In this document: positions 34,548 to 54,831 of the stretch, piece by piece
Position numbering within the stretch: position 1 is the stretch's first letter
Layout of the letters: every line of letters begins with the position of its first letter
DNA from: Obelidium mucronatum
Taxonomy: Eukaryota > Chytridiomycota > Chytridiomycetes > Chytridiales > Chytriomycetaceae
DNA length: 64,000 bases
Assembly: GCA_025765595.1 (NCBI GenBank)
Contig: JAIVFH010000093.1
Span: 1 to 64,000 of the forward strand
Reading direction: 5' to 3'
Notes under the pieces: model-generated
The model's input: only the letters and a program-made list of their open reading frames with translations
Database searches by the model: none
Told to the model about the DNA's origin: nothing
Made by a program: the position numbers and the translations under genes

Positions 34548-34551
34548 TTAG
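34548..34551. repeat. target-site duplication TTAG (left)
   Basis: The four bases TTAG immediately before the 5' LTR. The same four bases follow the 3' LTR at 43744-43747. Confidence 0.8.
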
Positions 34552-34736
34552 TGTTACTCGCACTTGGGTTTCTCGTCAAATATTTCTTCAATGATTTTCG
34601 AGATTTCCGCGGAACGGCCGACGCTGCTTCAAAACCAACACCAAGAATTCTCCTAGAGCGATCGCCCAGTTCTTTGTGGCTGATCGTCTCGGACTTTTTA
34701 TTATCATTGTTATTTTTCTTATTGTTTTGCTTTTCC

Positions 34737-34744
34737 TATATAAA
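34737..34744 (+). promoter_or_regulatory. possible TATA box in LTR
   Basis: TATATAAA about 185 bp into the LTR. It is a candidate core promoter for the genomic transcript; the same site recurs in the 3' LTR at 42922. A second ACTATATAAAC lies near the LTR end (35521). Confidence 0.4.
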
Positions 34745-34889
34745 CTTGAAGTTCTTCTCCACTTATTATTCTTTATTCGGATTTTTGTGGTTTTAATCTC
34801 CTGTATTCTTCTTTTACGCATTTGAAGGTTTTTATTCTTTCTTTATCTCCTTTTTTTTATTACTGATGGAGGGATTTCTTTGTGATCAA

Positions 34890-35431
34890 GGTTTTTATCC
34901 GCTTTTATTGCTATTGCCTATTTCTTTGGACGCGTTGGAACTGATTGAACGCGTGTTAAAGGTTTGAAGGAAGGAGTGTTATGGGATATGTTAACAATGG
35001 TTGGGGAACTCTAGGTATATTGCATTGGAGCGATTGATTGGGATTTACCACATAAGTTAACGTATCTGAATTATTGCGAAGGTACAAACAAATAAATATT
35101 CGGATTTTTGTGGTTTTAATCTCCTGTATTCTTCTTTTACGCATTTGAAGGTTTTTATCCGCTTTTATTGCTATTGCCTATTTCTTTGGACGCGTTGGAA
35201 CTGATTGAACGCGTGTTAAAGGTATATTGCATTGGAGCGATTGATTGGGATTTACCACATAAGTTAACGTATCTGAATTATTGCGAAGGTTTTTATCCGC
35301 TTTTATTGCTATTGCCTATTTCTTTGGACGCGTTGGAACTGATTGAACGCGTGTTAAAGGTTTTTATCCGCTTTTATTGCTATTGCCTATTTCTTTGGAC
35401 GCGTTGGAACTGATTGAACGCGTGTTAAAGG
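34890..35431 (+). repeat. internal modular repeats of the LTR
   Basis: A roughly 70-bp module beginning GTTTTTATCCGC and ending GCGTGTTAAAGG occurs four times (about 34890, 35150, 35289, 35360). A second module (TATATTGCATTGG...) occurs twice (about 35016 and 35222). A third (ATTCGGATTTTTGTGG...) also occurs twice, at about 34776 and 35097. The same arrangement is repeated in the 3' LTR. Confidence 0.85.
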
Positions 35432-35559
35432 TTAACTGGTATTATTCTACTGTGCCACATTGACGCCAACAATTTCAAGTCTTCGAACTTAATTGCTGGA
35501 TACTATCACACGAACCAAAAACTATATAAACAAACAAGAATTTATTGTACTTGTAACAG

Positions 35560-35572
35560 TGGCGAGCGTACC
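35560..35572 (+). other. candidate primer-binding site
   Basis: TGGCGAGCGTACC starts two bases after the 5' LTR. It has the TGG expected for pairing to a tRNA 3'-CCA end. I cannot name the tRNA without the host tRNA set. Confidence 0.55.
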
Positions 35573-35603
35573 ATTTTAAAATCTATTGTGGTAGTCAGTC
35601 AAT

Positions 35604-38570
35604 ATGGGCAAGAAGAAAGATTATTTCAAAACACATCAATTTCGAGGACCGAAAGTCACGGAATTTATTTATTATATTCTTCAACAAGTTGGGAAAAAGG
35701 GTCTGGATAGTGACTCAAAACAAATCAATTATTTATTGGCTATGGTCTCTCAAGCAGTCAATAAGGAATACGCGGTTTGGGCGGCTGGACAAACTAAAAT
35801 CATCAACTTCAAAGAATTGACAAATTGGTTTGCAACCAATTATAAAGATCAGGATATCATTTACAGTCTTGCGGATTTGGACAAAATGGCAAGAAAGCAA
35901 CGGTCGCGTGGAATTTTTGTTAGTGACGCGGAATATTTGGGAGAATATAACTCGGTCTTAACTGCAATGGACGACAACGCGAAGCCAGGAGATGCAGTTG
36001 CGGTTAAAACTTTCCTTCGAGAAGTTCGAGCTATTCTGGATAAAATTATTGGAGCGGATAATGTTCAGAACAATGATTGGAAAAATTTCTGCAAAGTTGT
36101 TACTACCTTGGATAAGTTGGAAAGATCTACAAAAGCTGTGTCTAAAGGTTCCCGTCGCAAGAAGCGGTCCGATAGCTCTAGCGATGAGAGTTCTAGTGAT
36201 ACTGAGACTGAATCTAGTTCGGAATCTTCGAGCAGCGAGTCTTCAAGCTCTAGCAGTTCCGAAAGTGAGAAAGTCAGCAAAAAGAAAAGAAAGTCAAAGA
36301 AAGTGAAGAAACCTGATCCGCCTAAAGAGGTTGTGGGCAATACCTCTGTGGATGAATTGGCGAAACAATTGGCGGAAATGCAGTTAAACCACGCGAAGGC
36401 ACAAGAAGCCATCTTCGCGGCTATTTCAAAAATTAGTACTCAACCAGCGTCAGCAGCAGCAGGAACAACTGGTGGGCAGCGGCCGGATTTTCTTTGCGCA
36501 TATTGCGGTACCAGTGAAAAGACACATGCTGTGTCGCGCGATCCATCTAAGTGTGAACAGTTTATTCAAGATGTGAAAAATGGTTGGCCTGTTACTTACG
36601 TTGAGACGAAGTTTGGGAAGCATGAGTTCCAATTCCAGGGAGAAAAAGTCCCTCTCAGCAATCTAAGAAATGGTGGAGTTAGGGCTTTAATCGAGAAAGA
36701 AAAGAGTAAAACAGCAGTAGCGTCTTCAAAAACCTTCAAAGCTGTACCCATTTGGAACACCGCGGACTATGAGTCTGAAGATTCGGACTTTGACGATAAT
36801 TATTACTCTGTTCTTGCGTGTTCTCAGAATTGTACACTGAAGAATGAGCCGTGGATTCCTTCTACTATTCCTAAATCAGAAGTCAAAAACGAAAAATGGT
36901 CAGAATTAAGGGGAACGGCGCATGCGATTAATGTCTCAGTACTTACCGCAAATATAATCTATGAGCCAATGTCGATTCCTGATTTTCATGGTGGCGCTAT
37001 GTTGCTGGACGATCCAAAGGGGCAAACTTTCCTTGCGGTTGATGTCTTCAAAGTCATGTGTGGCGTTGATGTTACTGAAGAGGAGTTAAACGAGACACAT
37101 AATTCTATGGTTAGTCGCAATGTTGGAAACGGCGGTCCTTACACTGTTGATCAAGTGGCCGCTGAGTTGTTGGAAATCCGCAGTCATGTCAAACGCCGAG
37201 CCGATGAAGAAGCCGAAGGCGACGCTGATCGTCGAAAGACTCGTTCGATGGGTCGTGAGGAAGCTCTGAAGCCGTTGGCTAAGTTCCAGGATGTTCCTAA
37301 CCCGACGTCAATTCCTGCGGTGCCTGCGGTTCCACCTCCGATTTTAAAGCCGATTTTTTCTAAGAAGCCTATAGAAGATAAGTCTGAGACTCCGCAAAAG
37401 AAAACTGTCGAATTTCAAGCGCAATCACCTCCAGCTCAGAAGCGTCCTTATAAGTTGGTTCGAAAGGGTCCAGTTGGCGACGGCAATCCTGAAGAAGTCG
37501 CGAAGAAACTAGTAGCTCAAACCCAACTAAACATTTCGTTGGAAGAGCTTTTAATTGTTAGTGAGCCTGTCAGGAAAGTTCTGAACACTTACACGGGTCT
37601 GACGCGCGAGTACTCTGATGCTAAGAATTCCAGTCCTGGCACTCCAATGCAGTTGCATTCTGTGGTTTCGCAATACGACTCGGGGAATACAGACTCTTCT
37701 GCGCAATATTTCGTAAATTCGGCGCTGTCGGAGGATAGTCCAGTTTCAAGTCCGCCGCCGATGTTGGATCTAAAGCTGAATGAGGAAATTTCAAGACACC
37801 TCACATCACAGTACCTGTCGAATCCTAGAAATCCTAGCGAAGTTCCAACTTCAATGCTCAACATCTTCATTCGTAATTTTGAATCAATCGCACAGACTGG
37901 TGAGTATGCGTCATTCATCAAAGATAAGGACGTCGCTCTGTCGAAGATGTCGTCTAGCCGATTCTATGATGCAAAAGATCCCTATTTGTCTTGTCATTTC
38001 TCGTCTGTTGATGTGCCTAAGTCGGATTTAGCCCGTCTAGCCGATCCTAATACTCAGCTAGCCTTGTATCCAGCTCCAGCTATACGCAATGTCCTCTTTC
38101 AAGATCTTGTTTTGTTGCCGAATTGTCCACTTGATGAGGGCGCCGAGTCGGTTTTTGCTCAAATGGAGTTAGCGTCTAAATGTCATTCTGTAAATGAGTT
38201 AGTAACAGACGTCAAATTATTCATGGTTTCCGCAAATAGCGCTCGAACGGAGATCTTTGGATTAATTCGAAACGCGTCAATAGTCGCTGGTGGGATTCAA
38301 ACGTTTAATCAAGTCTGGATTTTACCTAAGTTGCCGCCAAATGTGAAACCTTCGTTCCAACTACTTCTTGGTATGCCTTGGAAAAAGACTACGCGATGTG
38401 TCACTGGCTGGGATGATTATGGTAATGTTTGGGCTAAATTACACTCACCCGATGGCAAGAAAACAGTTCAGATGCAAGTCACCAATATTAATGATCCTCG
38501 CGTTGTCATTGACTATGATTCGCCGTCGCAACGAAAGCTTGAACGTTCCGAGACTGCGGGTTTTCAGTGA
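35604..38570 (+). CDS. retrotransposon Gag-like ORF1, 988 aa
   Basis: Structural polyprotein, intact. The N-terminal ~190 residues are probably capsid-like. A basic/Ser-acidic low-complexity tract spans about 183-232. A zinc-knuckle-like motif follows at C298-x2-C301-x6-H308-x8-C317, with longer spacing than a classical CCHC. The last ~150 residues resemble the second half of fungal retropepsins: Asp-Glu-Gly at 844-846 sits where D-[ST]-G is expected, and L-L-L-G-M-P-W lies near 920-926. A separate protease is not visible in pol, so this may be the protease region, though the missing Ser/Thr is odd. The stop TGA (38568-38570) lies four bases after a slippery heptamer, so a fraction of ribosomes should continue into pol. 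Confidence 0.85.
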   Translation: MGKKKDYFKTHQFRGPKVTEFIYYILQQVGKKGLDSDSKQINYLLAMVSQAVNKEYAVWAAGQTKIINFKELTNWFATNYKDQDIIYSLADLDKMARKQRSRGIFVSDAEYLGEYNSVLTAMDDNAKPGDAVAVKTFLREVRAILDKIIGADNVQNNDWKNFCKVVTTLDKLERSTKAVSKGSRRKKRSDSSSDESSSDTETESSSESSSSESSSSSSSESEKVSKKKRKSKKVKKPDPPKEVVGNTSVDELAKQLAEMQLNHAKAQEAIFAAISKISTQPASAAAGTTGGQRPDFLCAYCGTSEKTHAVSRDPSKCEQFIQDVKNGWPVTYVETKFGKHEFQFQGEKVPLSNLRNGGVRALIEKEKSKTAVASSKTFKAVPIWNTADYESEDSDFDDNYYSVLACSQNCTLKNEPWIPSTIPKSEVKNEKWSELRGTAHAINVSVLTANIIYEPMSIPDFHGGAMLLDDPKGQTFLAVDVFKVMCGVDVTEEELNETHNSMVSRNVGNGGPYTVDQVAAELLEIRSHVKRRADEEAEGDADRRKTRSMGREEALKPLAKFQDVPNPTSIPAVPAVPPPILKPIFSKKPIEDKSETPQKKTVEFQAQSPPAQKRPYKLVRKGPVGDGNPEEVAKKLVAQTQLNISLEELLIVSEPVRKVLNTYTGLTREYSDAKNSSPGTPMQLHSVVSQYDSGNTDSSAQYFVNSALSEDSPVSSPPPMLDLKLNEEISRHLTSQYLSNPRNPSEVPTSMLNIFIRNFESIAQTGEYASFIKDKDVALSKMSSSRFYDAKDPYLSCHFSSVDVPKSDLARLADPNTQLALYPAPAIRNVLFQDLVLLPNCPLDEGAESVFAQMELASKCHSVNELVTDVKLFMVSANSARTEIFGLIRNASIVAGGIQTFNQVWILPKLPPNVKPSFQLLLGMPWKKTTRCVTGWDDYGNVWAKLHSPDGKKTVQMQVTNINDPRVVIDYDSPSQRKLERSETAGFQ

Positions 38571-38590
38571 AGGCTGGAATGCTACCGGCC
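38558..38590 (+). promoter_or_regulatory. -1 programmed ribosomal frameshift signal
   Basis: GGGTTTT at 38558-38564 is read as G GGT TTT in the gag frame, a canonical X-XXY-YYZ heptamer. The gag stop follows at 38568. After a 7-nt spacer, GGCTGG (38572-38577) can pair with CCGGCC (38585-38590) around a 7-nt loop, a GC-rich hairpin at the usual distance. Slipping by -1 enters the pol frame, which is open from 38543. Confidence 0.8.
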
Positions 38591-41500
38591 GTTAAATACA
38601 AAATGCTAGGGAATATTACTACCTGTCAGTCTGGATTGGTGCAAGGACAGAGTTCAAGAATTTCAATTATTTCTTGGAACGTCAATTCAGTTAGAAATGC
38701 TGTCAAAATCATGAGTCAGGAGAATAAAGAGGAATTGCTGTCTTACGATGTCGTGTTGATTCAAGAATCTAAAGTCTCTCAAGATATCTTGTCTAAGTTT
38801 TCGACACTTGATTTAAGCGGATTCCATGTCTTCCACTCTGAATTTCCTCATGAGGAACTCGGTTTTGGAAAATGTCGAAATGGTGTCTTGACGCTGCTGA
38901 AAAAGAACAAGTTCTCCTTTCCAACGCGCGTTATCTGTTGTCCTCCTTCTATGACTGTCGCTGAATCCGAGGGACGCTATTTAGAAGTCTGTCTTGGTTC
39001 AATTGTTATTCTCAACGCGTATTGTCCAAATGCAAGTCGCGGAAACACTCATCGACTGCCATACAAAGAAAAGTTCAACAACGCACTTTTATTCAGAATT
39101 CGTCAATTAAAAAGTATGGGATTCTCAGTAATTTTGGGAGCCGATGTCAATGTTGCCCAAGAAGTATTAGATATTCATCCGCGTATTGTTCCTTGGATTA
39201 CCTCGGGATTCCAGGATTCTGAGCGGCAATGGCTTCGTGAATTAGCGGGCGAATTGCTTGATAGTTTTCGCGTCCTCCATCCCAATGATTCAGCATTTAC
39301 GACTTGGTATTACTTTTCGCGAAAGGATAATCTTGGAATGCGTTTTGACGTCGTACTGGTTTCAAAGGACATTTCTGCTAGGACGTGTATTCATGGCCAT
39401 CATATGTTGGGATCTGACCACATACCTGTTATCTGCGTCGTCGATTTGCCTATTACCGCTATCTCCAATAAGGCAAAGAAAGTTGCCGATAAGATTCGTC
39501 CAATTGCTGCCGAAATTCCTGGTGGAAGTCCGTCTTTTATTCTTCCGTCGGTTCCAGTTGACTTGATTCCTGCTCCGCGTTTAACTGAAGAAAGATTGGA
39601 TAAAATGTTTGCCAAATCAAGGAAAGAAAATCCCGGTTACCTTCGCGACGCTGAATATGAATTCCTCAAAGAGTCGGTTCGCAAGTATCCCACGGCGTTC
39701 TCTTTTAAGCTCGCAGAATTAGGTCGCGTCAAGCCTGAGTATAGTCCTCCTGCGGTTATCCATACTATTCCTCACAAGCCTTGGAATCATAAGGTCCGTC
39801 CAGTTCCTCCTGCCATTTTCGATGCCGTTACTGCCTTTTATAAGGAGCGGATTGATGCGGGTCTTCATGAATTGTGCAGCAGTCCATACGCTAATCGATG
39901 GTGGGCACTGGTTAAGAAGGACGGTAAATTTAGACCTATAATGGATGGGCAAGATATGAATTCGGTTACCATTCGCGATGCTGGTGGTCTCCCCTTGATT
40001 GAAGACATGACCGAGCGCATTGCTGGAAAGAAACTGGTCTCGGCGTTTGACATGATGTCCGCGTTTGACCAGATTCCTCTTGCTGTTCAAAGTCGAGATA
40101 TGACGGCAATTAATACCCCGATTGGTCAAATACGAAATACTGGCTTACCTCAAGGTGGTTGCAATTCGATGGCAATCACTCAAAGAGTCACTACATCGGT
40201 CTTTGTAACTCCTGGGACTGGTAATACCTCCGCGTATGCTGATGATCTGTCTGCTGCATCTGGAAGCGGTCCTGTTCGCGATGATGAGCCTGAAATTGAT
40301 GGTATTAGAGACTTTGTTAGAGAACATGCGGTCGTCATTGAGTGGATGTGTCAACAAGCAGTCAATTCGGGTCTTACCTTCAGTGGTGCAAAAGTCAATT
40401 TGGCGTTGATGAAGACTCTGGTCACTGGCGTCATTTGTGGTCCTGAAGGCCGCGAGATTAATCCTGTGAAGTTGGATGCGATGGTGCGGTTTCCAAGTCC
40501 TAACTCACTTGAAAAGCTACGATCCTTCTTGTATCTTTGTTCCTTCTTTCGGCAGTGGATTCATCGGTTTTCTTTACTCTCGGCTCCGCTGTTTCGTCTC
40601 ACTCGCAAAGGGATTGGTTGGAGCTGGAGTGATAGCGAATTTGTCGCTTTTGAAAATTTGAAAAATGCAATGTTGCATGCACCTGTCCGATGCACTCTGG
40701 ATTATGCCGCTTTTGTAAGTCGTCCACCATATCTTTACTTTGACGCTGCAAAAGAAGCGGAAGCGCAAGCGTTGGGGCAGAAAGACGATCAAGGTCGTTT
40801 AAGGGTATCGCATTTCTTCAGCGGTTTATTTTCCTCGGGTGAACTTGAATGGCATATTGTCAAAAAGGAGCTGCGTTCGTTGTCTCTGGGTCTTAAGCGA
40901 GCTGAAAGTCATATTCGATTGGCGCCGTGTGTCAAGGTTGTCGGCGATGCACTCTACTTGAAAGGCATGATCAACGATCCATCAAACTCGGATATGGCTA
41001 TGCGCCGCTGGATCTCCTATATTCTGACATTTCCGATTGAGTTCGAGGTGGTGGCTTCAAAGGATAATATAGTCGACGCTTTCACTCGAATGTATGACGA
41101 AAAGGACAAGTCTGATGATCTATACGACGGCAATGAACTTGACGATTCTATTGATCGAATGTTGAATTCTGTGTCTGTCTGCCGTTTCGCTGGATCACGC
41201 GCATATGCGCTTCAAGAGGATTATTCTGCGGACGAAGAATTGAGTCAAGTCGCATATTATCTGGATACTCTTGGATTTTCGGAAAGCCTAACGGAGAAAA
41301 AGAAGTCTTTTATTCGGCGGAAGGCAACTGGATTCTATTTGCGCGATGGAATCTTATTTAAACGCTCAAAAGATAGTATTCCTAAACGGGTTGTGGTCAA
41401 GCGGGATATTCAGTTCCAATTAATCAAAGAAGCACACGCGGGTGTTGGCGGCGGTCATGCGGCGTTTGAAGCTACTTATCTGACTCTGCGTCTACGGTAT

Positions 41501-42841
41501 TACTGGAGAGCTTTGCGAACTGATGTCAAGGAATTTTGTGAGCGGTGCGATGACTGTCAGCGGATGGCCTTTCAACGTCAGAAGGAAGCGGTGCGGCCAT
41601 CAAAAACTCCTACAACATTATTCTTGGTTTGGTATGGCGATTGGTGCGAATTTCCGGAAACTGGGAACGGCTTTCGGCAATTATGGCACTTGACTGAAGG
41701 GATCTCTGGACTCAATGAAGCAAAAGCCTTCAAGCGTCAAACTTGGGAAGCTGCTATGAAATGGACTATTCAGGATGTGTTACATCGTTACGGGTATGCG
41801 GCACTATTTTGTTTCGATGCGAGCTCTATGTCTTCAAAGGATGCAAGGGCGATTTATGACCTATACAAGATTGAAATCCGTCTCATTGCTCCTCACAATC
41901 ATAAGGGTCTTGGTCCTGGCGAACGGCGACATACTCCATTAGTGGGCGCGATCGCAAGGTCTTGTCGAAGCGATCCAAAGAAGTGGGCGGAACGCGTCTC
42001 TAATGCCTGTCTTGCTACAAATATTCACACAAACTATCGCGGATATTCAGCATATGAGATTGTTTATTATCAGCAGCCGTTTATGCATCTGGATATTGTT
42101 CAAGAATCGTTCTCTATCATCAACTTTCGCGAAGGAATGTCTTTGGTTGACTTGTTGGCTGGCAGAATGCGCGTCTTGGAGCGTCGTGTTTCGGATCTTG
42201 AACATGTGAAACGTCAAATTGAGGAGAATCGAAAGAAAGGCGCGGATTACTACAACAAAAAACACAAGAAACAACTGCGGTCTGAGCGCTTGAATATTGG
42301 CGATGCGGTTCTTATCTTCGACTCAAACTTGCACGATCATTTTCATCGCAAATTGAAAGATGTCTGGTACGGTCCATTTATTATTCACGACGTTCGTGAT
42401 GGAACCTATGTCTTGAAGGAACTAGACGGAAGAAAACGCAAGCGTCCTGTTTCTGGTGATCATCTCAAGCTCTGGTATCCTCCGATGGCTTATAGTTCTA
42501 TGTCGCTGTTTTGGGACGAAGTTGAAGTTTCCGACTCTGATGTCCACCCGTTGATTTCTGCTATTTTATCCTGTACTATCATTGATCCATTTGAAGATCT
42601 TGACGAATTGTCTGAGCTTGTTTCGCTTGAAGAAGTATCTGATGCTGTCTCTGTTGGGAATTCTTTCCATGTGGCTCAAGTTTCTGTTTTCTCTGCGTCA
42701 AGGGACGACGCATTGCTACCGCTGGGTTCAAAGGACTGTTACTCGCACTTGGGTTTCTCGTCAAATATTTCTTCAATGATTTTCGAGATTTCCGCGGAAC
42801 GGCCGACGCTGCTTCAAAACCAACACCAAGAATTCTCCTAG
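38567..42841 (+). CDS. retrotransposon Pol: EEP endonuclease-RT-RNaseH-integrase
   Basis: Pol polyprotein of 1,425 codons, probably made as a Gag-Pol fusion by -1 frameshifting; the first ATG in frame is 38579. Numbering is from the codon at 38567. Residues ~31-300 form an exonuclease-endonuclease-phosphatase (ExoIII/AP endonuclease) domain with all expected catalytic positions: N38, E67, Y152, D193/N195, D261, D284/H285. RT follows, with Y-A-D-D at 557-560. RNase H begins near Y-F-D-A (~724) and ends near N-I-V-D-A-F. The integrase has an H957/H964 and C-x2-C zinc domain, core D1025, D1084 and E1119 (34 residues between the last two) and a W-Y-G-P-F module near 1268. No chromodomain or retropepsin is seen in this ORF. 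The last 35 codons lie inside the 3' LTR. Confidence 0.93.
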   Translation: MKAGMLPAVKYKMLGNITTCQSGLVQGQSSRISIISWNVNSVRNAVKIMSQENKEELLSYDVVLIQESKVSQDILSKFSTLDLSGFHVFHSEFPHEELGFGKCRNGVLTLLKKNKFSFPTRVICCPPSMTVAESEGRYLEVCLGSIVILNAYCPNASRGNTHRLPYKEKFNNALLFRIRQLKSMGFSVILGADVNVAQEVLDIHPRIVPWITSGFQDSERQWLRELAGELLDSFRVLHPNDSAFTTWYYFSRKDNLGMRFDVVLVSKDISARTCIHGHHMLGSDHIPVICVVDLPITAISNKAKKVADKIRPIAAEIPGGSPSFILPSVPVDLIPAPRLTEERLDKMFAKSRKENPGYLRDAEYEFLKESVRKYPTAFSFKLAELGRVKPEYSPPAVIHTIPHKPWNHKVRPVPPAIFDAVTAFYKERIDAGLHELCSSPYANRWWALVKKDGKFRPIMDGQDMNSVTIRDAGGLPLIEDMTERIAGKKLVSAFDMMSAFDQIPLAVQSRDMTAINTPIGQIRNTGLPQGGCNSMAITQRVTTSVFVTPGTGNTSAYADDLSAASGSGPVRDDEPEIDGIRDFVREHAVVIEWMCQQAVNSGLTFSGAKVNLALMKTLVTGVICGPEGREINPVKLDAMVRFPSPNSLEKLRSFLYLCSFFRQWIHRFSLLSAPLFRLTRKGIGWSWSDSEFVAFENLKNAMLHAPVRCTLDYAAFVSRPPYLYFDAAKEAEAQALGQKDDQGRLRVSHFFSGLFSSGELEWHIVKKELRSLSLGLKRAESHIRLAPCVKVVGDALYLKGMINDPSNSDMAMRRWISYILTFPIEFEVVASKDNIVDAFTRMYDEKDKSDDLYDGNELDDSIDRMLNSVSVCRFAGSRAYALQEDYSADEELSQVAYYLDTLGFSESLTEKKKSFIRRKATGFYLRDGILFKRSKDSIPKRVVVKRDIQFQLIKEAHAGVGGGHAAFEATYLTLRLRYYWRALRTDVKEFCERCDDCQRMAFQRQKEAVRPSKTPTTLFLVWYGDWCEFPETGNGFRQLWHLTEGISGLNEAKAFKRQTWEAAMKWTIQDVLHRYGYAALFCFDASSMSSKDARAIYDLYKIEIRLIAPHNHKGLGPGERRHTPLVGAIARSCRSDPKKWAERVSNACLATNIHTNYRGYSAYEIVYYQQPFMHLDIVQESFSIINFREGMSLVDLLAGRMRVLERRVSDLEHVKRQIEENRKKGADYYNKKHKKQLRSERLNIGDAVLIFDSNLHDHFHRKLKDVWYGPFIIHDVRDGTYVLKELDGRKRKRPVSGDHLKLWYPPMAYSSMSLFWDEVEVSDSDVHPLISAILSCTIIDPFEDLDELSELVSLEEVSDAVSVGNSFHVAQVSVFSASRDDALLPLGSKDCYSHLGFSSNISSMIFEISAERPTLLQNQHQEFS

Positions 42842-43743
42842 AGCGATCGCCCAGTTCTTTGTGGCTGATCGTCTCGGACTTTTTATTATCATTGTTATTT
42901 TTCTTATTGTTTTGCTTTTCCTATATAAACTTGAAGTTCTTCTCCACTTATTATTCTTTATTCGGATTTTTGTGGTTTTAATCTCCTGTATTCTTCTTTT
43001 ACGCATTTGAAGGTTTTTATTCTTTCTTTATCTCCTTTTTTTTATTACTGATGGAGGGATTTCTTTGTGATCAAGGTTTTTATCCGCTTTTATTGCTATT
43101 GCCTATTTCTTTGGACGCGTTGGAACTGATTGAACGCGTGTTAAAGGTTTGAAGGAAGGAGTGTTATGGGATATGTTAACAATGGTTGGGGAACTCTAGG
43201 TATATTGCATTGGAGCGATTGATTGGGATTTACCACATAAGTTAACGTATCTGAATTATTGCGAAGGTACAAACAAATAAATATTCGGATTTTTGTGGTT
43301 TTAATCTCCTGTATTCTTCTTTTACGCATTTGAAGGTTTTTATCCGCTTTTATTGCTATTGCCTATTTCTTTGGACGCGTTGGAACTGATTGAACGCGTG
43401 TTAAAGGTATATTGCATTGGAGCGATTGATTGGGATTTACCACATAAGTTAACGTATCTGAATTATTGCGAAGGTTTTTATCCGCTTTTATTGCTATTGC
43501 CTATTTCTTTGGACGCGTTGGAACTGATTGAACGCGTGTTAAAGGTTTTTATCCGCTTTTATTGCTATTGCCTATTTCTTTGGACGCGTTGGAACTGATT
43601 GAACGCGTGTTAAAGGTTAACTGGTATTATTCTACTGTGCCACATTGACGCCAACAATTTCAAGTCTTCGAACTTAATTGCTGGATACTATCACACGAAC
43701 CAAAAACTATATAAACAAACAAGAATTTATTGTACTTGTAACA
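42737..43743 (+). repeat. 3' LTR (1,007 bp)
   Basis: Same length and boundaries as the 5' LTR, and apparently identical to it. Its first 105 bp encode the end of pol. Its last 17 bp provide the final codons and stop for the host gene at 43727 on the other strand. Confidence 0.95.
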
Positions 43744-44857
43744 TTAGTTCTTGGATAACGCGCTCATTTTCTGCACGGGCACGCTGCAGTTGAACCACAG
43801 CATGTAATCGCTTCAGCTCCTGCTCCTTCATCTCCTCGGTATACACCACATCTTGAATCATATCCTCACTCCCCTTCTCAGCATCGTCTCCAACAACAAC
43901 CTGATCGACAACACTAACTGACAAATGAGTACTGGCAATCGTCCGACTTCTCCCACTCCCACTTCCAGTTCGAACTGAATCGTCATCAAAAAAGTCATCC
44001 CGGTGCCAGAACGCTGGAAGAGAAGGCGCGCGGTGAATCCAACTCATCACAGCCGGTATTTTTGGTGGAACCGCTGCGGCGGCGGCTGTTGTTGCGTCTT
44101 TGGCCCCTTCTTCAGTATCGATAGCTACACTTCTTTTGCGTCTCAATGCCGTAAACAACCCAATCACAAACACCCCAGCAACAATCCCAAACGCTGCACC
44201 AACCGCAGACATCCAAATCATGGGATTCATTCCCACAGTCGCCTGATCACTACCAACACCACCAACTGACGCACCACCTGACGCACCACCTGGCTGATGA
44301 GCCCCACCGCCGGGGTTATTAAAAACAGGAACGATTCCTTGCGGCTGCGAGGCGGGAGCTTGCGTTATAACGATTGGTTCGCCATTGGGAGCATTCTGCG
44401 GCGCTGAGTTGTGATTAATTGCATTACTCACTTCGTCCTTCACTACACCAGGATTAATGATCCCCCCTCCTCCTCCTCCTCCTCCATTCGCCGCATCTTG
44501 CGTTGGTGCGACATTGTTGGCTGGATTTGTTGGACCTGGATGGATGGACGAATGCGGATCCGCCACAACCAAATCGATTGGTTTGGTTGTTGTGGCAGGT
44601 TGTGGACCGACAGGATTCATAGATCTAATGTAGTCTAGAAGGCCACCTCCCCCAGATCGAATGAAGGGAGAGAAGGGACTGCATTGGAGAGAAGTGGATA
44701 GAGACAGCTCCACACAGTCTTGGTAAGGGTCAGAGCAATAAAAGTCCGGCTCCCCGCATAGAGGCGTGTAGCAAGAGAACTTGGTTTCACCCCAGTACCC
44801 GCAACCGGCTGTCCAGACTACGGATAGTGGTTTTGCTTGTCGCTTGGACAATGTCAT
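43727..44857 (-). CDS. group C six-Cys membrane protein, C-terminus altered by LTR
   Basis: Start ATG 44857 (MTLSKRQAKP). Ectodomain cysteines are at 19, 29, 34, 41, 48 and 59 (C-x9-C-x4-C-x6-C-x6-C-x10-C). A long Gly/Pro/Asn linker follows, then a membrane helix (near 44130-44210, beginning MIWMSAVGAAFGIVAG) and R-R-K-R. The tail carries H-R-D-D-F-F-D-D-D-S then S-T-H-L-S-V. The retrotransposon landed in the last codons: after V-I-Q-E-L the reading frame enters the LTR and stops at 43727 with five LTR-coded residues. Across the empty site (34551 joined to 43748) the frame would run eight codons further to TAG. The gene is otherwise intact. Confidence 0.8.
   Translation of the reverse strand: MTLSKRQAKPLSVVWTAGCGYWGETKFSCYTPLCGEPDFYCSDPYQDCVELSLSTSLQCSPFSPFIRSGGGGLLDYIRSMNPVGPQPATTTKPIDLVVADPHSSIHPGPTNPANNVAPTQDAANGGGGGGGGIINPGVVKDEVSNAINHNSAPQNAPNGEPIVITQAPASQPQGIVPVFNNPGGGAHQPGGASGGASVGGVGSDQATVGMNPMIWMSAVGAAFGIVAGVFVIGLFTALRRKRSVAIDTEEGAKDATTAAAAAVPPKIPAVMSWIHRAPSLPAFWHRDDFFDDDSVRTGSGSGRSRTIASTHLSVSVVDQVVVGDDAEKGSEDMIQDVVYTEEMKEQELKRLHAVVQLQRARAENERVIQELMLQVQ
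43744..43747. repeat. target-site duplication TTAG (right)
   Basis: Second copy of the 4-bp target duplication, directly after the 3' LTR and inside the coding end of the group C gene. Confidence 0.8.
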
Positions 44858-45014
44858 TTGAACCAATGGTGTGTGGTGATGGCAATACAAGCCTGATTTC
44901 CAAGAAAATTGATTAGAAAAGAAAATAAAACAGGCGAGCGTCTTTCACACGCGAGTAATCTATATAATTATAAAACAAGAAACAACAACAACTAAAATAG
45001 CGGACACCAACATA

Positions 45015-46364
45015 TTACAAGTCCACAATTTCAGCTGTTCCACTGCCCGGCAGTGCGACGTCAACAACATTCACGTTTCTGGCAACACCGACAGAATCGA
45101 GTCTCACTAATCCACCTTCAATAGACGTAGCAACTCCTTCGTCTTGTCCTTCTTCCAAGATTTTCAAGTTTGCTCCAAACTGCCGAAAATCGTGAACGCC
45201 GCTTCGAGTTGCCAAACCCTTCTTTTCTCCAAAACCACTACTTGTACTTTGCTTTGGTGGCATCGCTCTTCGCAGGCCAAGACCAACAGAATTAGAAGCT
45301 CCACCCTGTTTTTCACTTGATCCACTATTCCTACTACTCTTGATACTTGCTTCCAAATCCCCAGTCTCATCTACAAAAAACAGTCCCTCAATCGCACTAA
45401 CAACTCTCACATCTTCTGCATATATACTGCTTCCTTCTGAAAGAGCAGGAGACATTGGAGTAGTATTTCCACCACCACCAGACACCGAGTCATCGTCAAA
45501 GAAATCATCTGCATAAGTTACAGGAGCGGAAAACCCGGGAATCGGCGCGATCGCAATATGGCTTGAAGGAAGAGGTGGGAGTGGAGACATGGGTGCTAGT
45601 TTCGAGATCCTTGCCGTTCGCGGAAGACTTTTCAAACCCGGAAGTGAGGAAAGATCGGAATCTCTTGGCGTCGTTGTAGTTGCTGTTGCGTTTCCTTGTT
45701 TTGCTGCAATACGCGCTTCGAATTCCGTCATGAGCAAGTCTCTCCGCCGCTTCGATTCTCGCGATACCAATAGTGCAATTGCCAACACGGCCACGACGGC
45801 AGCGCCCACGATTCCAAGCACATATACGAGACTGCTGTTTGCCGCTATCCCCGCGTTGTTGTTTGTGCTTGTGTTTGAGTTGCTGTTTGTGGCGCCAGCC
45901 GTTGGTGCCGCTGTGTGTATTCCAACTGCGCCGACTCCAGCGGCTGAATCGGTAAAGTTCAAATTTCCTGCGCCGGCAGTTGCAACCAGCGGCGCAGCCT
46001 CGATGACCGGCGGCAGCCCGGCGTTGGCGGCGTTTGCGGCGCTGAACGCATCGACGGGTGGCTCGCGATGGCCGGCGCCGGCGTCGTCGCCGTGGCGGTC
46101 GTCGCCGTGCGGCGGCAGCGGCGCCGGAAACGGCGGCGGCGGAAAAGGCGGCGGCGGAAACGCGGCAAAGAACGGCGCCCACGGACTCGCGGCGTCGAAG
46201 CACGGCGGCTGCGGCGGCCTCGTCGCCTGGCACGCGCTGCCCGCCGGACACTCCGATCCGGCGCCGGCACAAGGCGCGTCGGTGCATTCGGCGCGGGTCA
46301 GTCCTGCTCGGAGGCAAGCGTACACGGGCGGCGGGGGTGGTCCGAATCCTGGAGGCGGCGGCAT
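45015..46364 (-). CDS. group C six-Cys membrane protein, 449 aa
   Basis: Intact frame from ATG 46364 (MPPPPGFGPP). Cysteines at 17, 27, 32, 39, 45 and 55 give C-x9-C-x4-C-x6-C-x5-C-x9-C. A Pro/Phe-rich stretch and Asn/Ser-rich linker follow, then a helix near 45770-45840 (VYVLGIVGAAVVAVLAIALL) and S-K-R-R-R. The tail has Y-A-D-D-F-F-D-D-D-S and is longer than in neighbours. There is no signal peptide, so N-out insertion by a reverse signal anchor is inferred. High GC in the Cys region. Ligand unknown. Confidence 0.82.
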   Translation of the reverse strand: MPPPPGFGPPPPPVYACLRAGLTRAECTDAPCAGAGSECPAGSACQATRPPQPPCFDAASPWAPFFAAFPPPPFPPPPFPAPLPPHGDDRHGDDAGAGHREPPVDAFSAANAANAGLPPVIEAAPLVATAGAGNLNFTDSAAGVGAVGIHTAAPTAGATNSNSNTSTNNNAGIAANSSLVYVLGIVGAAVVAVLAIALLVSRESKRRRDLLMTEFEARIAAKQGNATATTTTPRDSDLSSLPGLKSLPRTARISKLAPMSPLPPLPSSHIAIAPIPGFSAPVTYADDFFDDDSVSGGGGNTTPMSPALSEGSSIYAEDVRVVSAIEGLFFVDETGDLEASIKSSRNSGSSEKQGGASNSVGLGLRRAMPPKQSTSSGFGEKKGLATRSGVHDFRQFGANLKILEEGQDEGVATSIEGGLVRLDSVGVARNVNVVDVALPGSGTAEIVDL

Positions 46365-46611
46365 GTTAAGGATGGGTGATGGAAATTGGGTTTTCTTTCA
46401 AATTAAATATGGATACAAGCCAAACAACCAGACACAAGCAATTTACCTCAAAACGTTAACAATTTGTTCAAGAATCAGACACGTATTCCTGTTCACGGAA
46501 GAGTGATGATGAACGCTTTTTTTCGTTGGTGACCTCACAGATGGCCATTTTGTCGTGGTTATATAGAAGAATGTATCTTTATGTAGAATACGATTATACA
46601 ACACAATTCAA

Positions 46612-47787
46612 TCATTCTGGCAGGTTCTCCCGTCCATGGTGGGCATTCACTGCCATTCGAAGGTCATCTATCCCTCTTCCAGCAGGCCTCACCCTCCCAC
46701 CTCCAACAACTGCCGCTGAAGGCAACCCTTGCAATCCATTATTTGCACCGCCAACAGCAACAAACTCATCCATCCGAAACTGTCGAAACTCGGCTGGATC
46801 CACACTAATATGTGTACTCATACCAACAGAAACACCCCCAATCGATGAAGTATCGTCAAAAAAGTCGTCCTTGAACCCACGTTGAATCCTTCCAGTCTCA
46901 ATACCACTACTACTTCCTTGACGCCCTCCTGCTGTTGTTGCTACTGCCGACCGAGCTTGCAGCAACACAATCGGCTCCGTCATTTCCACCGCTTCTCCAT
47001 CCCCTTCGTCATCTTCATCATCATCACCTCCTCCACCCCTCCGACTACTTACAACACGAACACCAGTTGCACTCTGCTTCGACGCAAACATTGTTTGTGA
47101 ACTCGTATCAGCATTATCAATCCCATGATGACTCCCACTCAATCGTTCTCGTTCTCGTCCACCACGACCACCACCCCCCTTCTTTCGATTCTTGACAACA
47201 ATAGAGTATGCCACAAACGCTCCAGCAAGGAAACAAACTGCACCAATAGCCCCACCAATCAATGCGATATTCGAATTCCCATTACTGTTGTTGTTGCTGC
47301 TGCTGCTGGTTCCAGTAGTTGAGTCCAAGGCTTGTTGCGAGGCAACCGATGACGTTATTAGAGGCGCCACTGTCGCCGCCGCCGAAGCACGAGGAGACGG
47401 CGCCTTGACTTTCACAAACACGAATCCAGGCAACATATCCAATGGAACATCTGTCGGATCATCTCCTTCGCCAATAAAGGATCCGTTGGAAAGAGATGCT
47501 CTGATTGGCAGGAACTGCATCATCATTCCTGGATCCTGACAGCCTGGGAACGGTGGTGGTGGGAGCACTTGGGTGCATTCGGAGTAGGTGTCTTTACAGA
47601 GGAGGCGGGAGGCCCAGCATGGTTGGTCGTCGCAGGAGGCTTGAGTTGTTGAGTTTGTGCAACTCCAGACTGCTTGAGGTGGAGGCAGTGGTGGTCTTCC
47701 GCCAGGTCCTCCTCCAGGTGGTCCAGGAGGTAGCGGAAAGGGAGGTGGAAAGGGTGGAGGAGGCGGCGGTGGAGGTGGTTGTTGCAT
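46612..47787 (-). CDS. group C six-Cys membrane protein, 391 aa
   Basis: Intact frame from ATG 47787, starting with a poly-proline run. Cysteines are at 43, 52, 57, 64, 71 and 83, with the block W-S-C-T-N and D-Q-P-C-W-A-S shared with the next two genes. The helix is 174-198, followed by K-N-R-K-K. The tail has T-D-T/A-D-T-S-S-Q-T, then F-K-D-D-F-F-D-D-T-S (306-315), S-T-H-I-S-V (324-329) and a C-terminal G-R-G-I-D-D-L segment. It forms a recent paralogue pair with the gene at 48073. Confidence 0.85.
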   Translation of the reverse strand: MQQPPPPPPPPPFPPPFPLPPGPPGGGPGGRPPLPPPQAVWSCTNSTTQASCDDQPCWASRLLCKDTYSECTQVLPPPPFPGCQDPGMMMQFLPIRASLSNGSFIGEGDDPTDVPLDMLPGFVFVKVKAPSPRASAAATVAPLITSSVASQQALDSTTGTSSSSNNNSNGNSNIALIGGAIGAVCFLAGAFVAYSIVVKNRKKGGGGRGGRERERLSGSHHGIDNADTSSQTMFASKQSATGVRVVSSRRGGGGDDDEDDEGDGEAVEMTEPIVLLQARSAVATTAGGRQGSSSGIETGRIQRGFKDDFFDDTSSIGGVSVGMSTHISVDPAEFRQFRMDEFVAVGGANNGLQGLPSAAVVGGGRVRPAGRGIDDLRMAVNAHHGRENLPE

Positions 47788-48072
47788 AGAGGATTATTTG
47801 ATTAATATTGGTAAACTTGTTATTGGTTGTAATCTGCACACACACACACACTTTTTTTTGTTGATCGGTCCTTTTGTGTCTCTCTCGCATCGACAATCAA
47901 ATCAATATTTTTTGTTTACAGTGTGCCAGTGGTTTAGAAAAAAGCAGACAAAGCATCTATAGAAAATTGAAAGAAGAACAAAGAGAAAACGAAGAGGTAT
48001 AAACAGAAAGAGAGACTGAGAGAGAACGTAAAGAAAATAATAAAAAGAGAGACCCGATCCTTGTGGAAAAAA

Positions 48073-49095
48073 TCACTCCTGTGGGTCACGTGAATTGTGA
48101 GTCTTGACAACAGTCCTGAGATCATCGATTCCACGACCGACCGGTCGAACTCTCGCGCCACCAATTGCTTGCGACGTAGGCAAACCAGCAGCCATTCTTT
48201 GCCCTCCCGCTGCATTACCGCCTGCTATAAATTCATCCATTTGAAATGGTCGAAACTCGGCAGGATCAACACTGATATGCGTACTAACACCCACAGACAC
48301 GCCCCCAATCGACGACGTATCATCAAAAAAGTCATCTTTGAATCCCCGAGGAACAGGCTCAAGCAGTCCACCATCAGGACCCCTCCGCTGCAAGTGTGCC
48401 TGCAGACCACCACCACCACCACTAGTGCCAACAGCACCACCACCGCTATTTCCAACACCCCCAGTAGAGCTCTTTCCCTGCATTTCGATATCCTGAGTTC
48501 CATCTGAATCTCCACCACGGACTCCCGTTTCACTCCGCTTTGATGCAAAATTTGTTTGTGAGCTTGTATCCGTGTTATCAAAGTCCCCAGTTCTAGAGGA
48601 CCCACTTTTCTTTCGCTTGATCACAGCTACATAGGCCACAAAGATGCCCGATAGAAAACATACTGCGCCAATGGCGCCGCCAATGAGTGCCAAATTGGGG
48701 CCTGTCGACGTCTCGATTGTAATGACAGCAGGCACAGCAGCAGTGGTAGAAGAAACAGAAGATGTAGCAACAGCAGCGAAAGCTATAGAAGCAGTAGACG
48801 TCCTTATTGGAGGAGGAACCTTGAGAAACAGTTCATCAGGGAGAAGTGATAGTGACACATTGGTTGGATCTCGTTGTCCTCCAATGACACCTCCGTTGAG
48901 AAGCCTCGTAAGAGTTGGTTTGAATGGTCCGCCTGGGCAACCGCCGGCCGGGGGCAGCACTTCCTGGCATGAGGGAAGGTCTCCTTGGCAGAGCAAGAGA
49001 GACGCCCAACAGGGTTGATCGTTGCAGGTTGCTTGAGTGGCGTTTGTGCAACTCCAAACTGTTTGGTTTGGTGGAACGGCTGTTGTTTCGGCCAT
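48073..49095 (-). CDS. group C six-Cys membrane protein, 340 aa
   Basis: Intact frame from ATG 49095 (MAETTAVPPN). Cysteines at 16, 24, 29, 36, 43 and 53 give C-x7-C-x4-C-x6-C-x6-C-x9-C. The helix is about 134-159, followed by K-R-K-K-S. The tail matches the 46612 gene closely: N-T-D-T-S-S-Q-T, F-K-D-D-F-F-D-D-T-S, S-T-H-I-S-V, E-F-R-P-F and G-R-G-I-D-D-L-R. It is the cleanest reference for group C. No enzymatic domain is visible. Confidence 0.85.
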   Translation of the reverse strand: MAETTAVPPNQTVWSCTNATQATCNDQPCWASLLLCQGDLPSCQEVLPPAGGCPGGPFKPTLTRLLNGGVIGGQRDPTNVSLSLLPDELFLKVPPPIRTSTASIAFAAVATSSVSSTTAAVPAVITIETSTGPNLALIGGAIGAVCFLSGIFVAYVAVIKRKKSGSSRTGDFDNTDTSSQTNFASKRSETGVRGGDSDGTQDIEMQGKSSTGGVGNSGGGAVGTSGGGGGLQAHLQRRGPDGGLLEPVPRGFKDDFFDDTSSIGGVSVGVSTHISVDPAEFRPFQMDEFIAGGNAAGGQRMAAGLPTSQAIGGARVRPVGRGIDDLRTVVKTHNSRDPQE

Positions 49096-49275
49096 CTATG
49101 AAAAACAGATGTGGGTCTCGTTTTTTTTTCTAAGTCAATCTCAAGAAAAATTGTGGAGATTGTTATTGTATTAACAACGATATGAGTCAAGAGTCGCAAA
49201 AAAAAAGATCGTTTTATATCTTTATTTGTCATAGACTGTCAAAAGGTTTTGGTGGTATCAAGGAAAAAAAAAACA

Positions 49276-50261
49276 TCATGATTCGGCATTACGATGTTTA
49301 TCAACAACGCCTTGTAAATCGTCAATACCACCACGACCGGTTGTACGCATTCGCGTAGCAGGAAGAACTGGAGACGGGATCCCCTCCGGATATAATTCTC
49401 CAGCTTGACCTGGCCTTGAATGCATCCTTCTGGAAAGGCCGTAGCTCTGTCACATCCACACTGATATGCGTGCTTATCCCAATGGATGAAGAATCATCGA
49501 AAAAGTCATCCCTGAAACCACGATGCGGGTGGTATAGTTGTTGTGGATCCAAGTAATTAAGATCCCGACGCTGCAGTTGTGGATGTAACCTGTCGCCGTC
49601 CAATAGATTTGGTTGAGTAATTGGAGTTCCCCTGGGGCTGCTGCTGTCGCTGCAGCTCGTCAGATCCAGTGGAAACGCCAACCTTGTCGTACTTTGACGA
49701 TGAGCTTCCGCCGACTGCGGCATATGATGAGGTAGAAACTGGCGGTACTTCTTGTTCTGTCTTTCGCTTTCTCCCGAACAAGGCATATGCTGCAATTACG
49801 CCCAGTAGGAAACAGATGCCGCCAATGGCACCGCCAAATATCATGCCTGAGGAGCCGCCTACAGTCACCATCGCAATAGGAGCTGCGCCTTGCAGAGGGG
49901 TGGCAGTGGCAGTGGTGGTAGTGGTAGTGGCAGTGGTAGTGGCAGTGGAAGTGGTAGCAGCGCCAGCTACTGTTGCTGCAGCTGTGGCTTGAGTTGGCTT
50001 CGTCGCCAAGAAAAACAGGCGCAGCGGCAGGACTGCCAGCGGCCGGTCGGCGGGTCCGCCCGGGCCCGGCGCAAACGGCGACACGCCGCCGTTCGCGTTC
50101 GCGTACGCAAAGCGGCCGTCGCACGGCGCCGGCGGCTGCGCGACGCGCTTGCACGGCGCCGGCAGTCCGTCGCACAGCCGCAGCGACGCCCAGCACGGCT
50201 GCTCGCTGCAGCCCGCCACGTCGGCGGCGGTGCAGCTCCAGAACTCAAATGCAGCGGCCAT
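49276..50261 (-). CDS. group C six-Cys membrane protein, one or two frame breaks
   Basis: Start ATG 50261 (MAAAFEFWSC). Cysteines are at 10, 18, 23, 30, 37 and 47. A Thr-rich linker, a helix near 49790-49860 (GGAIGGICFLLGVIAAY) and G-R-K-R-K follow. After about 49580 the frame must change to read R-G-F-R-D-D-F-F-D-D-S-S, S-T-H-I-S-V and E-L-R-P-F. A second change near 49390 gives G-R-G-G-I-D-D-L and the stop at 49276. The preserved motifs on both sides suggest sequence indels or very recent damage. Confidence 0.65.
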
Positions 50262-50415
50262 CGTTGATCTGTGTGTTGGTGGTGGTGTGAGGGAAAATTT
50301 GCATTCAATCAATGAAATGATTTGTGACTCGTGATAACAGATCTGCTGATCTATACACCAAAAAACTCAACGCATGGAAAGCCATAAAAAGGCAAGTGTT
50401 TTTATCAATATTGTT

Positions 50416-54077: not shown

Positions 54078-54831
54078 CTACGGAAGTGGCGGCTTCTCTG
54101 CCTCTGCCAATTCAGGTAGAAAGGCGTCCCCTTGAAAAGGCCTGAGTTCACTTGCAGCAACGCTAATTCGCGTAGATTCACCAATAGAAGTATCATCAAA
54201 GAAATCGTCTCGTTCAGCAAATGTGGGAACATCTCGTCGAGGAGGGTCCACGCGCCGCAATTGCTGAGCTGCTTGCTGGAGAATCTTGGTCCTTGCCGCC
54301 ACTTTCTTTTCCAGATCTGGAACGGGTCGCGCTATGATTCGTTTCAACTACTACTTTGACGCCGAATTTGCGGACAATCATGTAGATTGCAACGGCAATC
54401 ACAACAGCAACACCCACGGATATCGCAACGATGGCTCCAACACTAACTCCTGAGTTTGAAGTGTCAACATTATTTGTGGCTGGTATCTTTGACACTGCAG
54501 CAGTACTAGCAGCACTCGTTGTAGTGGTTGTACTTGATAGTGGTCGAACTGCCAGACTAGTTTTGAGTCTCTCCAGCTGCTGCTGAACCTCGATGCTTTG
54601 CTGAAGATCAAAATAAACCATCCAAGGACCAGTGTCACACTTTGGTTGCGGAAGATCAACCAAGTTACAACTAGAGCCCAACGGACACACAGAGTCTCCA
54701 CTACCGGAACACAGAGGATCCGTACAGAATGCTCGGGCACGTGGATTCGCTTGCGCTAATTGGGCAGGAGTCACACAGCCCCATTGGGGATCTGGGCGAG
54801 GGCGGGGTGATGTTGATGGCGACAGACTCAT
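54078..54831 (-). CDS. group C six-Cys membrane protein, one frame break
   Basis: Start ATG 54831 (MSLSPSTSPR). Cysteines are at 19, 36, 41, 49, 55 and 65, with W-G-C before and C-D-T-G-P-W after. The helix lies near 54375-54445 (GAIVAISVGVAVVIAVAI). A one-base change near 54340 moves to the frame holding E-R-D-D-F-F-D-D-T-S, S-T-R-I-S-V and E-L-R-P-F, with the stop at 54078. The gap is too short for an intron, so an indel is likely. The Cys domain shows the longest first spacing in the family (x16). Confidence 0.65.

Follow-up and report, generated by a model that had tools for sequence, protein, structure and literature searches.

Long terminal repeat (LTR) retrotransposons and retroviruses are built round a protease, a reverse transcriptase (RT), an RNase H, and an integrase. 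EEP nucleases are by rule the mark of long interspersed nuclear elements (LINEs), which use them for target nicking and priming, and the enzymes of the ExoIII class possess 3′ exonuclease and RNase H activity. Here, we analyze the first 64,000 nucleotides (forward strand) of contig JAIVFH010000093.1 of the chytrid Obelidium mucronatum (assembly GCA_025765595.1), hereafter the window, in which positions 34552-43743 are a Ty3/gypsy-type LTR retrotransposon with the pol domain order EEP nuclease, RT, RNase H, DDE integrase. This additional, selected, repair-type enzyme is present in two positions and in several lineages, and the EEP nuclease is a recurring part of these elements. Our preferred reading, with a probability of roughly 0.55, is that the window element was recently active, that its pol has stably acquired a predicted catalytically complete ExoIII/APE1-type nuclease that would act on the element's own cDNA, and that the integrase makes the insertion.

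Transposase_22 and DUF1725 are marks of LINE-1. Among the closest descriptions in print, both are counted beside Exo_endo_phos_2 in the LTR retrotransposon section of a camel table (PMC8605555). For the Kuafuorterviruses, Exo_endo_phos is described as "only present sporadically" and as perhaps derived from the host (PMC11673190); compared by description only, the domain is sporadic there and regular across families here. Retrotransposons with an acquired DNA methyltransferase are a precedent for capture of a DNA-acting enzyme (PMC5890265), with the differences that the enzyme is another one and that Exo_endo_phos is only named there among Symbiodinium LINE and DIRS domains. Complex fungal elements with extra domains derived from multiple insertions have also been described (PMC3248453). 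The PMC open literature searched (titles and the beginnings of abstracts, with Repbase and subscription journals outside its scope) contained no description of an EEP nuclease in Ty3/gypsy pol. An earlier sequence-only reading of the window had held that an LTR element with both nuclease and integrase would be a new domain architecture, and the literature so covered shows no earlier account of it.

The window element and its nuclease domain

The window element shares with Ty3/gypsy (Metaviridae) its LTRs with TG...CA ends, a tRNA primer site, a short duplication of fixed length, the order RT, RNase H, integrase, and Ty3 RT as best match, which places it in that group. It differs by the ExoIII-type nuclease, located at the start of pol here and between RNase H and integrase in a second group of elements. 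Its features are the following.

34548..34551: target-site duplication TTAG, left copy
34552..35558, plus strand: 5′ LTR, 1007 nt, TGTTAC...GTAACA, with internal 71- and 83-nt repeats
35560..35573, plus strand: primer binding site TGGCGAGCGTACCA, 1 nt past the LTR
35604..38570, plus strand: ORF1 (open reading frame 1), 988 aa, Gag by position, with a Ser/Asp-rich stretch
38091..38381: retropepsin-like stretch, ORF1 residues 830-926, by motif
38558..38564, plus strand: GGGTTTT, with the frame of a −1 ribosomal slippery heptamer, just 5′ of the ORF1 stop
38567..42841, plus strand: ORF2 (pol), 1424 aa, a single open frame that terminates within the 3′ LTR
38663..39442, plus strand: ExoIII/APE1-type EEP nuclease domain, by profile match
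39914..40405, plus strand: reverse transcriptase core with YADD, RVT_1, residues 450-613
40625..41026, plus strand: RNase H region, Pfam RT_RNaseH_2 and RT_RNaseH, residues 687-820
41399..41566, plus strand: integrase zinc-binding domain, Integrase_H2C2, residues 945-1000
41633..41923, plus strand: integrase core stretch with D, D, E, residues 1023-1119, by alignment
42737..43743, plus strand: 3′ LTR, 1007 nt, identical to the 5′ LTR
43744..43747: target-site duplication TTAG, right copy

The sequence-only reading had described identical LTRs, a target duplication, a DDE integrase and, at 38567..39470, an EEP nuclease at the start of pol retaining all ExoIII-type catalytic positions. All of these descriptions hold: the 1007-nt LTRs are flanked by TTAG, and the span given for the nuclease covers the profile match. 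Pfam Exo_endo_phos matched pol residues 35-285 (E 2.6e-11, profile positions 1-225 of 225), and NCBIfam xth TIGR00633 matched residues 33-292 with 132.4 bits against a curated cut-off of 99.05; the domain did not reach the cut-off of any of the three narrower ExoIII models to which it had a match (TIGR00195, NF010489, and NF008733). Residues N38, E67, Y152, D193, N195, D261, D284, and H285 are present in the ORF2 translation and align with the catalytic residues N68, E96, Y171, D210, N212, D283, D308, and H309 of APE1 (chain 7cd6).

The genome searched comprises 48.3 Mb in 694 contigs; C-numbers denote contigs or copies, the window copy being C93. Elements with the EEP domain at the start of pol (window type) are labeled A, C579 and C21 are labeled A2, and the second group B. 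In an alignment of 22 LTR-element rows, which are not independent and include near copies, the equivalents of APE1 Y171, N212, D283, D308, and H309 are conserved in every row, D210 and E96 in 21 each, and N68 in 18, the exceptions at N68 and E96 being gaps in shortened rows.

The solved structures closest to the window EEP domain are those of an ExoIII (5j8n, E 1.5e-28) and of APE1 (best chain 2.5e-22), and no LINE endonuclease is found among the 56 distinct PDB sequences matched at E≤0.01. A LINE-type EEP domain of the same genome matches 2v0r ("LTX", 4.3e-11) and the LINE-1 endonuclease (2.7e-8), and ExoIII only at 8.3e-4; on TIGR00633 it scores 87 bits, versus 132 for the window domain. By score, the window EEP is closer to cellular ExoIII/APE1 than to LINE endonucleases. 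It is like ExoIII/APE1 (Xth) enzymes in being a full-length domain above the TIGR00633 cut-off with the catalytic residues kept, and unlike them in lying within a retrotransposon polyprotein, in its changed abasic-pocket residues, and in that its abasic-site activity is only predicted. With APE-type LINEs, the element has in common an EEP-fold nuclease joined to RT, but it possesses LTRs, RNase H, a DDE integrase, and fixed-length duplications; the lack of LTRs and of integrase and the target-primed insertion that define APE-type LINEs are not found in it. A tblastn search with the EEP domain against phage records matched 13 records, each at <60% identity, and six peptide patterns found no relatives in IMG/VR.

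The best solved match of the window RT is Ty3 RT (E 4.8e-21, among 12 PDB matches). The integrase zinc finger was identified by Pfam, and the alignment with relatives identifies D1025, D1084, and E1119 as the conserved catalytic-type D, D, E set; Pfam rve gave no match to the window copy at E≤1. The three residues are kept in the rows that reach them (window, C493, C26, C10b, P0001, P0002, and C579), and by motif in C601 and C33.

Families, insertion ends, and a second position in pol

There are at least 46 pol matches in the genome. Four near-full pol copies without stops (C93, C151, C295, and C10) are 96-100% identical, with synonymous divergence (dS) of up to 0.45. The ratio of nonsynonymous to synonymous divergence (dN/dS) for the EEP domain is 0.07-0.14 in all six pairs of these copies, compared with 0.03-0.05 for the linker, 0.02-0.04 for RT-RNase H, and 0.03-0.06 for the integrase in five pairs, the sixth integrase pair giving 0.31 on only four changes. 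Judged by these ratios, the EEP domain is under purifying selection in the window family. In the pol comparison of C93 with C151 (L001, L002), the integrase is nearly identical (4 changes), whereas dS is 0.27 for the EEP domain and 0.14 for RT-RNase H, and the copies therefore look mosaic.

The EEP domain is also conserved in families with pol identity of 38-55%, other A families including C493, C26, C10:274640, C196, and C85. Close EEP pairs from these families gave dN/dS of 0.04 (C26-C196, dS 1.26) and 0.23 (C493-C225, 20 changes). TIGR00633 has 91 matches in the genome, 20 of them above cut-off, and at 19 of the 20 an RT or RT-RNase H match adjoins on the same strand; the twentieth, C53, has an EEP domain resembling that of A2, and its flanks lie outside the comparison. 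Contigs such as C143, C18, and C49 have gypsy-type RT matches and no EEP among the matches listed. Outside this genome, the order EEP, RT, RNase H, integrase zinc finger is found in P0001 and P0007 (ENA) and in P0008 from Chytriomyces confervae, the nearest named relative (54% identical to the window in the RT region), whose protein record is without the start of the EEP domain. The P0007 EEP scores 23.3 bits, slightly below the Pfam cut-off of 24.5. P0002 (ENA) shares 67% identity with P0001 along its length, and P0011 (ENA) has an EEP domain followed by a very divergent RT. The fusion is not due to chance, nor is it a one-off chimera, the outcome that the sequence-only reading had named as fatal to its proposal: all four near-full copies keep the EEP domain, as do other families and the outside proteins.

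A separate ExoIII-RT fusion was observed in P0003, P0004, P0005, and L112, where an N-terminal ExoIII is joined to a group-II-intron-like RT. P0003 scores 255 bits on TIGR00633 and has RVT_N, RVT_1, and GIIM; the domains of P0004 and P0005 are by precomputed Pfam. One match, covering residues 3-189 only, lies in an uncultured Oscillospiraceae contig.

Window-family LTR places with flanks number at least nine, of which five were read at both ends and C526, C13, C12, and C52 at one end only. All five have 4-bp duplications (TTAG, ACGT, TGGG, CCCA, and ACCT), and with one insertion of the second group (ACAG), six of six fully read insertions have complete LTR ends and 4-bp duplications. The six duplications have no common sequence, which fits integrase and not target-primed insertion. 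The suggestion of the sequence-only reading that the nuclease might serve an alternative route without integrase finds no support in these same six insertions. The left flank of C526 is the same as that of C295. No empty site for the window copy was found in the genome, where each of its flanks matches itself only.

In the B group, Ty3/gypsy elements of the same genome have the EEP domain between RNase H and integrase in a single frame. The fetched frame of C601 contains RT_RNaseH at 110-216, EEP at 371-640, Integrase_H2C2 at 766-823, and rve at 841-936, and the domain arrangement of C33 is the same. P0006 (ENA) has RT, RNase H, and EEP in the B order, the protein stopping short of an integrase match. 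The C33 element has two identical 971-nt LTRs and the duplication ACAG, and C161 is its clean empty site with a single ACAG; because the element on C33 is absent at the matching C161 site (L113, L114, L115), it may be polymorphic. Its 5′ LTR (L116, C33:138266 onward) is followed by GGGGGGCCCAACC, and no TGG-type tRNA primer site is present there. In C579, RT, RNase H, and EEP share a frame and the integrase zinc finger is in the next frame; C21 has the same domain order with broken frames. C579 was placed with A by the trees and C21 by likeness to C579.

To place the domain, EEP trees of 33 and 31 rows were built. The first omitted the near copies C151, C295, and C10, the copy L037, the broken rows C225 and C305, and, among others, the LINE-type places L046, L048, L050, L058, and L060; for the second, five near copies were dropped and three proteins added. 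In the EEP trees, A and A2 form one set (100/98) and B another (100/100), and in the 31-row tree A and P0011 form a supported set (98/100). Of six groupings put to that tree, the five besides A with P0011 were not rejected (approximately unbiased test, AU, p 0.16 to 0.53). The comparison with LINE endonucleases and cellular ExoIII/APE1 that the sequence-only reading had proposed thus supports the A/A2 and B sets and singles out no origin, on a thin LINE sampling of five rows in the 33-row tree and four in the 31-row tree. In the RT tree, A and A2 group together (100/100), separately from B, Ty3, and the remaining gypsy elements of the genome. The A2 RT and EEP fall with A, and the domain has therefore moved within one lineage. 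A single EEP-bearing RT clade is not rejected in either of two RT trees (p-AU 0.29 and 0.22); holding the A2 and B RTs together is rejected (p-AU 1.9e-10). The trees appear compatible both with one capture followed by relocation and with two captures.

Candidate roles of the nuclease

According to our preferred reading, the EEP nuclease would be made with the other pol products inside the particle. Its substrate would be the cDNA of the element itself, which it would cut at abasic sites and rid of 3′ ends that are blocked or extended. The cleaned cDNA would then let second-strand synthesis and joining by integrase proceed, the insertion being made by integrase and not by the EEP nuclease. If this is correct, integrating elements can bring along an enzyme of their own to repair cDNA or process its ends. 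The limits on cDNA integrity in integrating retroelements then become open to test, and an EEP nuclease is no longer so clear a mark of a LINE. More tentatively, and at slightly less than an even chance, the chytrid Ty3/gypsy elements may represent a class of integrating retroelements equipped with one more nuclease, of ExoIII type, for cDNA repair or end processing. Its two positions, ahead of RT and between RNase H and integrase, would reflect at least two events of capture or relocation in pol, and its logic would be like that of the retroviral dUTPase, with excision repair as the mode of action.

Several observations weigh against the preferred reading. The equivalent of APE1 F266 is Thr in all 22 LTR-element rows, and that of W280 is Met in 13, Trp in eight, and Phe in one; in APE1 these two residues line the abasic-site pocket. 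The changes make the abasic-site specificity of the EEP domain doubtful. The window copy has Thr and Met at the two positions, and E. coli XthA likewise departs from APE1 there (W, L). The D210 equivalent is Asn in one B copy. Constraint on the EEP domain is weaker than on RT-RNase H (0.07-0.14 versus 0.02-0.04). B EEP pairs gave dN/dS of 0.31, 0.03, and 0.81 on 24, 9, and 8 changes, one B pair is without synonymous change, and more distant pairs are saturated; the close B pairs are too few and too alike, so that selection, established in the window family, is not established in B. In the decayed copies C96, C595, and C400, no EEP domain was present in the fetched stretches upstream of RT.

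The nuclease could instead be a 3′ end processor for integration, supplying integrase with CA ends by trimming surplus 3′ nucleotides of the cDNA or by removing what is left of the primer. The single nucleotide between LTR end and primer site would suit such an enzyme, as would the two ExoIII-class activities and the position of the second-group EEP domain, directly preceding the integrase zinc finger. However, window-type elements have the domain at the opposite end of pol, and other Ty3/gypsy elements process their ends without one, and we regard this role as unlikely. The EEP domain might also be retained as a structural spacer or to bind or cleave RNA, its DNA nuclease activity being immaterial. 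This would accord with the altered abasic pocket and the weaker constraint; it is a less probable explanation still, as metal and catalytic residues are kept across families only 38-55% identical in pol.

The precedent of LINEs raises a further possibility, that the EEP nuclease nicks or selects target DNA or provides a LINE-like target-primed route beside integrase. We consider this very improbable: each of the six fully read insertions has intact LTR termini and a 4-bp duplication, with no sequence shared among the duplications, the C33/C161 pair is a clean insertion, and LINE endonucleases are absent from the PDB matches of the window domain at E≤0.01. The EEP nuclease as the insertion enzyme itself is likewise disfavored by the 4-bp duplications. 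The genome does contain LINE-type EEP domains, but a functionless chimera, or a LINE or host gene nested in the element, has a negligible probability. The continuous frame in four copies, the relatives in other records, the purifying selection, and a profile score exceeding that of the LINE-type domain all speak against it.

Other features of the element and the window

No Gag family match was found in ORF1 with Pfam. Near the ORF1 C-terminus, a putative retropepsin, recognized by motif only, has D-E-G at residues 844-846 and LLGMPW at 921-926, and relatives of this stretch occur in L031, L035, L039, and L045. Five aligned rows have D-x-G, x being E, D, K, or I, instead of D-S/T-G, with no Pfam match; the putative protease thus differs from that of Ty3/gypsy in having no Ser/Thr at this position. 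ORF1 and ORF2 overlap by four bases. The GGGTTTT heptamer is kept in all four near-full copies; relative C493 is without it, and in relative C26 a gap separates the ORF1 and ORF2 frames.

All 14 nt of the primer site TGGCGAGCGTACCA can pair with the 3′ terminus of tRNA-Arg(ACG), including the added CCA. The tRNA-Arg starts with GGGCGTA, and its T-arm-to-acceptor string has 18 exact genomic places; ARAGORN called a tRNA at one of the two such places fetched and not at the other. The 71- and 83-nt repeats within the LTRs lie at window positions 34774-35433 and 42959-43618, and LTRs range in length from 536 to 1101 nt, with differences both among copies and inside single ones.

At window positions 43727-50312 (minus strand) and 54192-54209, similar ORFs follow one another, marked by a cysteine-rich stretch and a segment resembling a membrane span. 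The minus strand has six occurrences of the motif DDFFDD.

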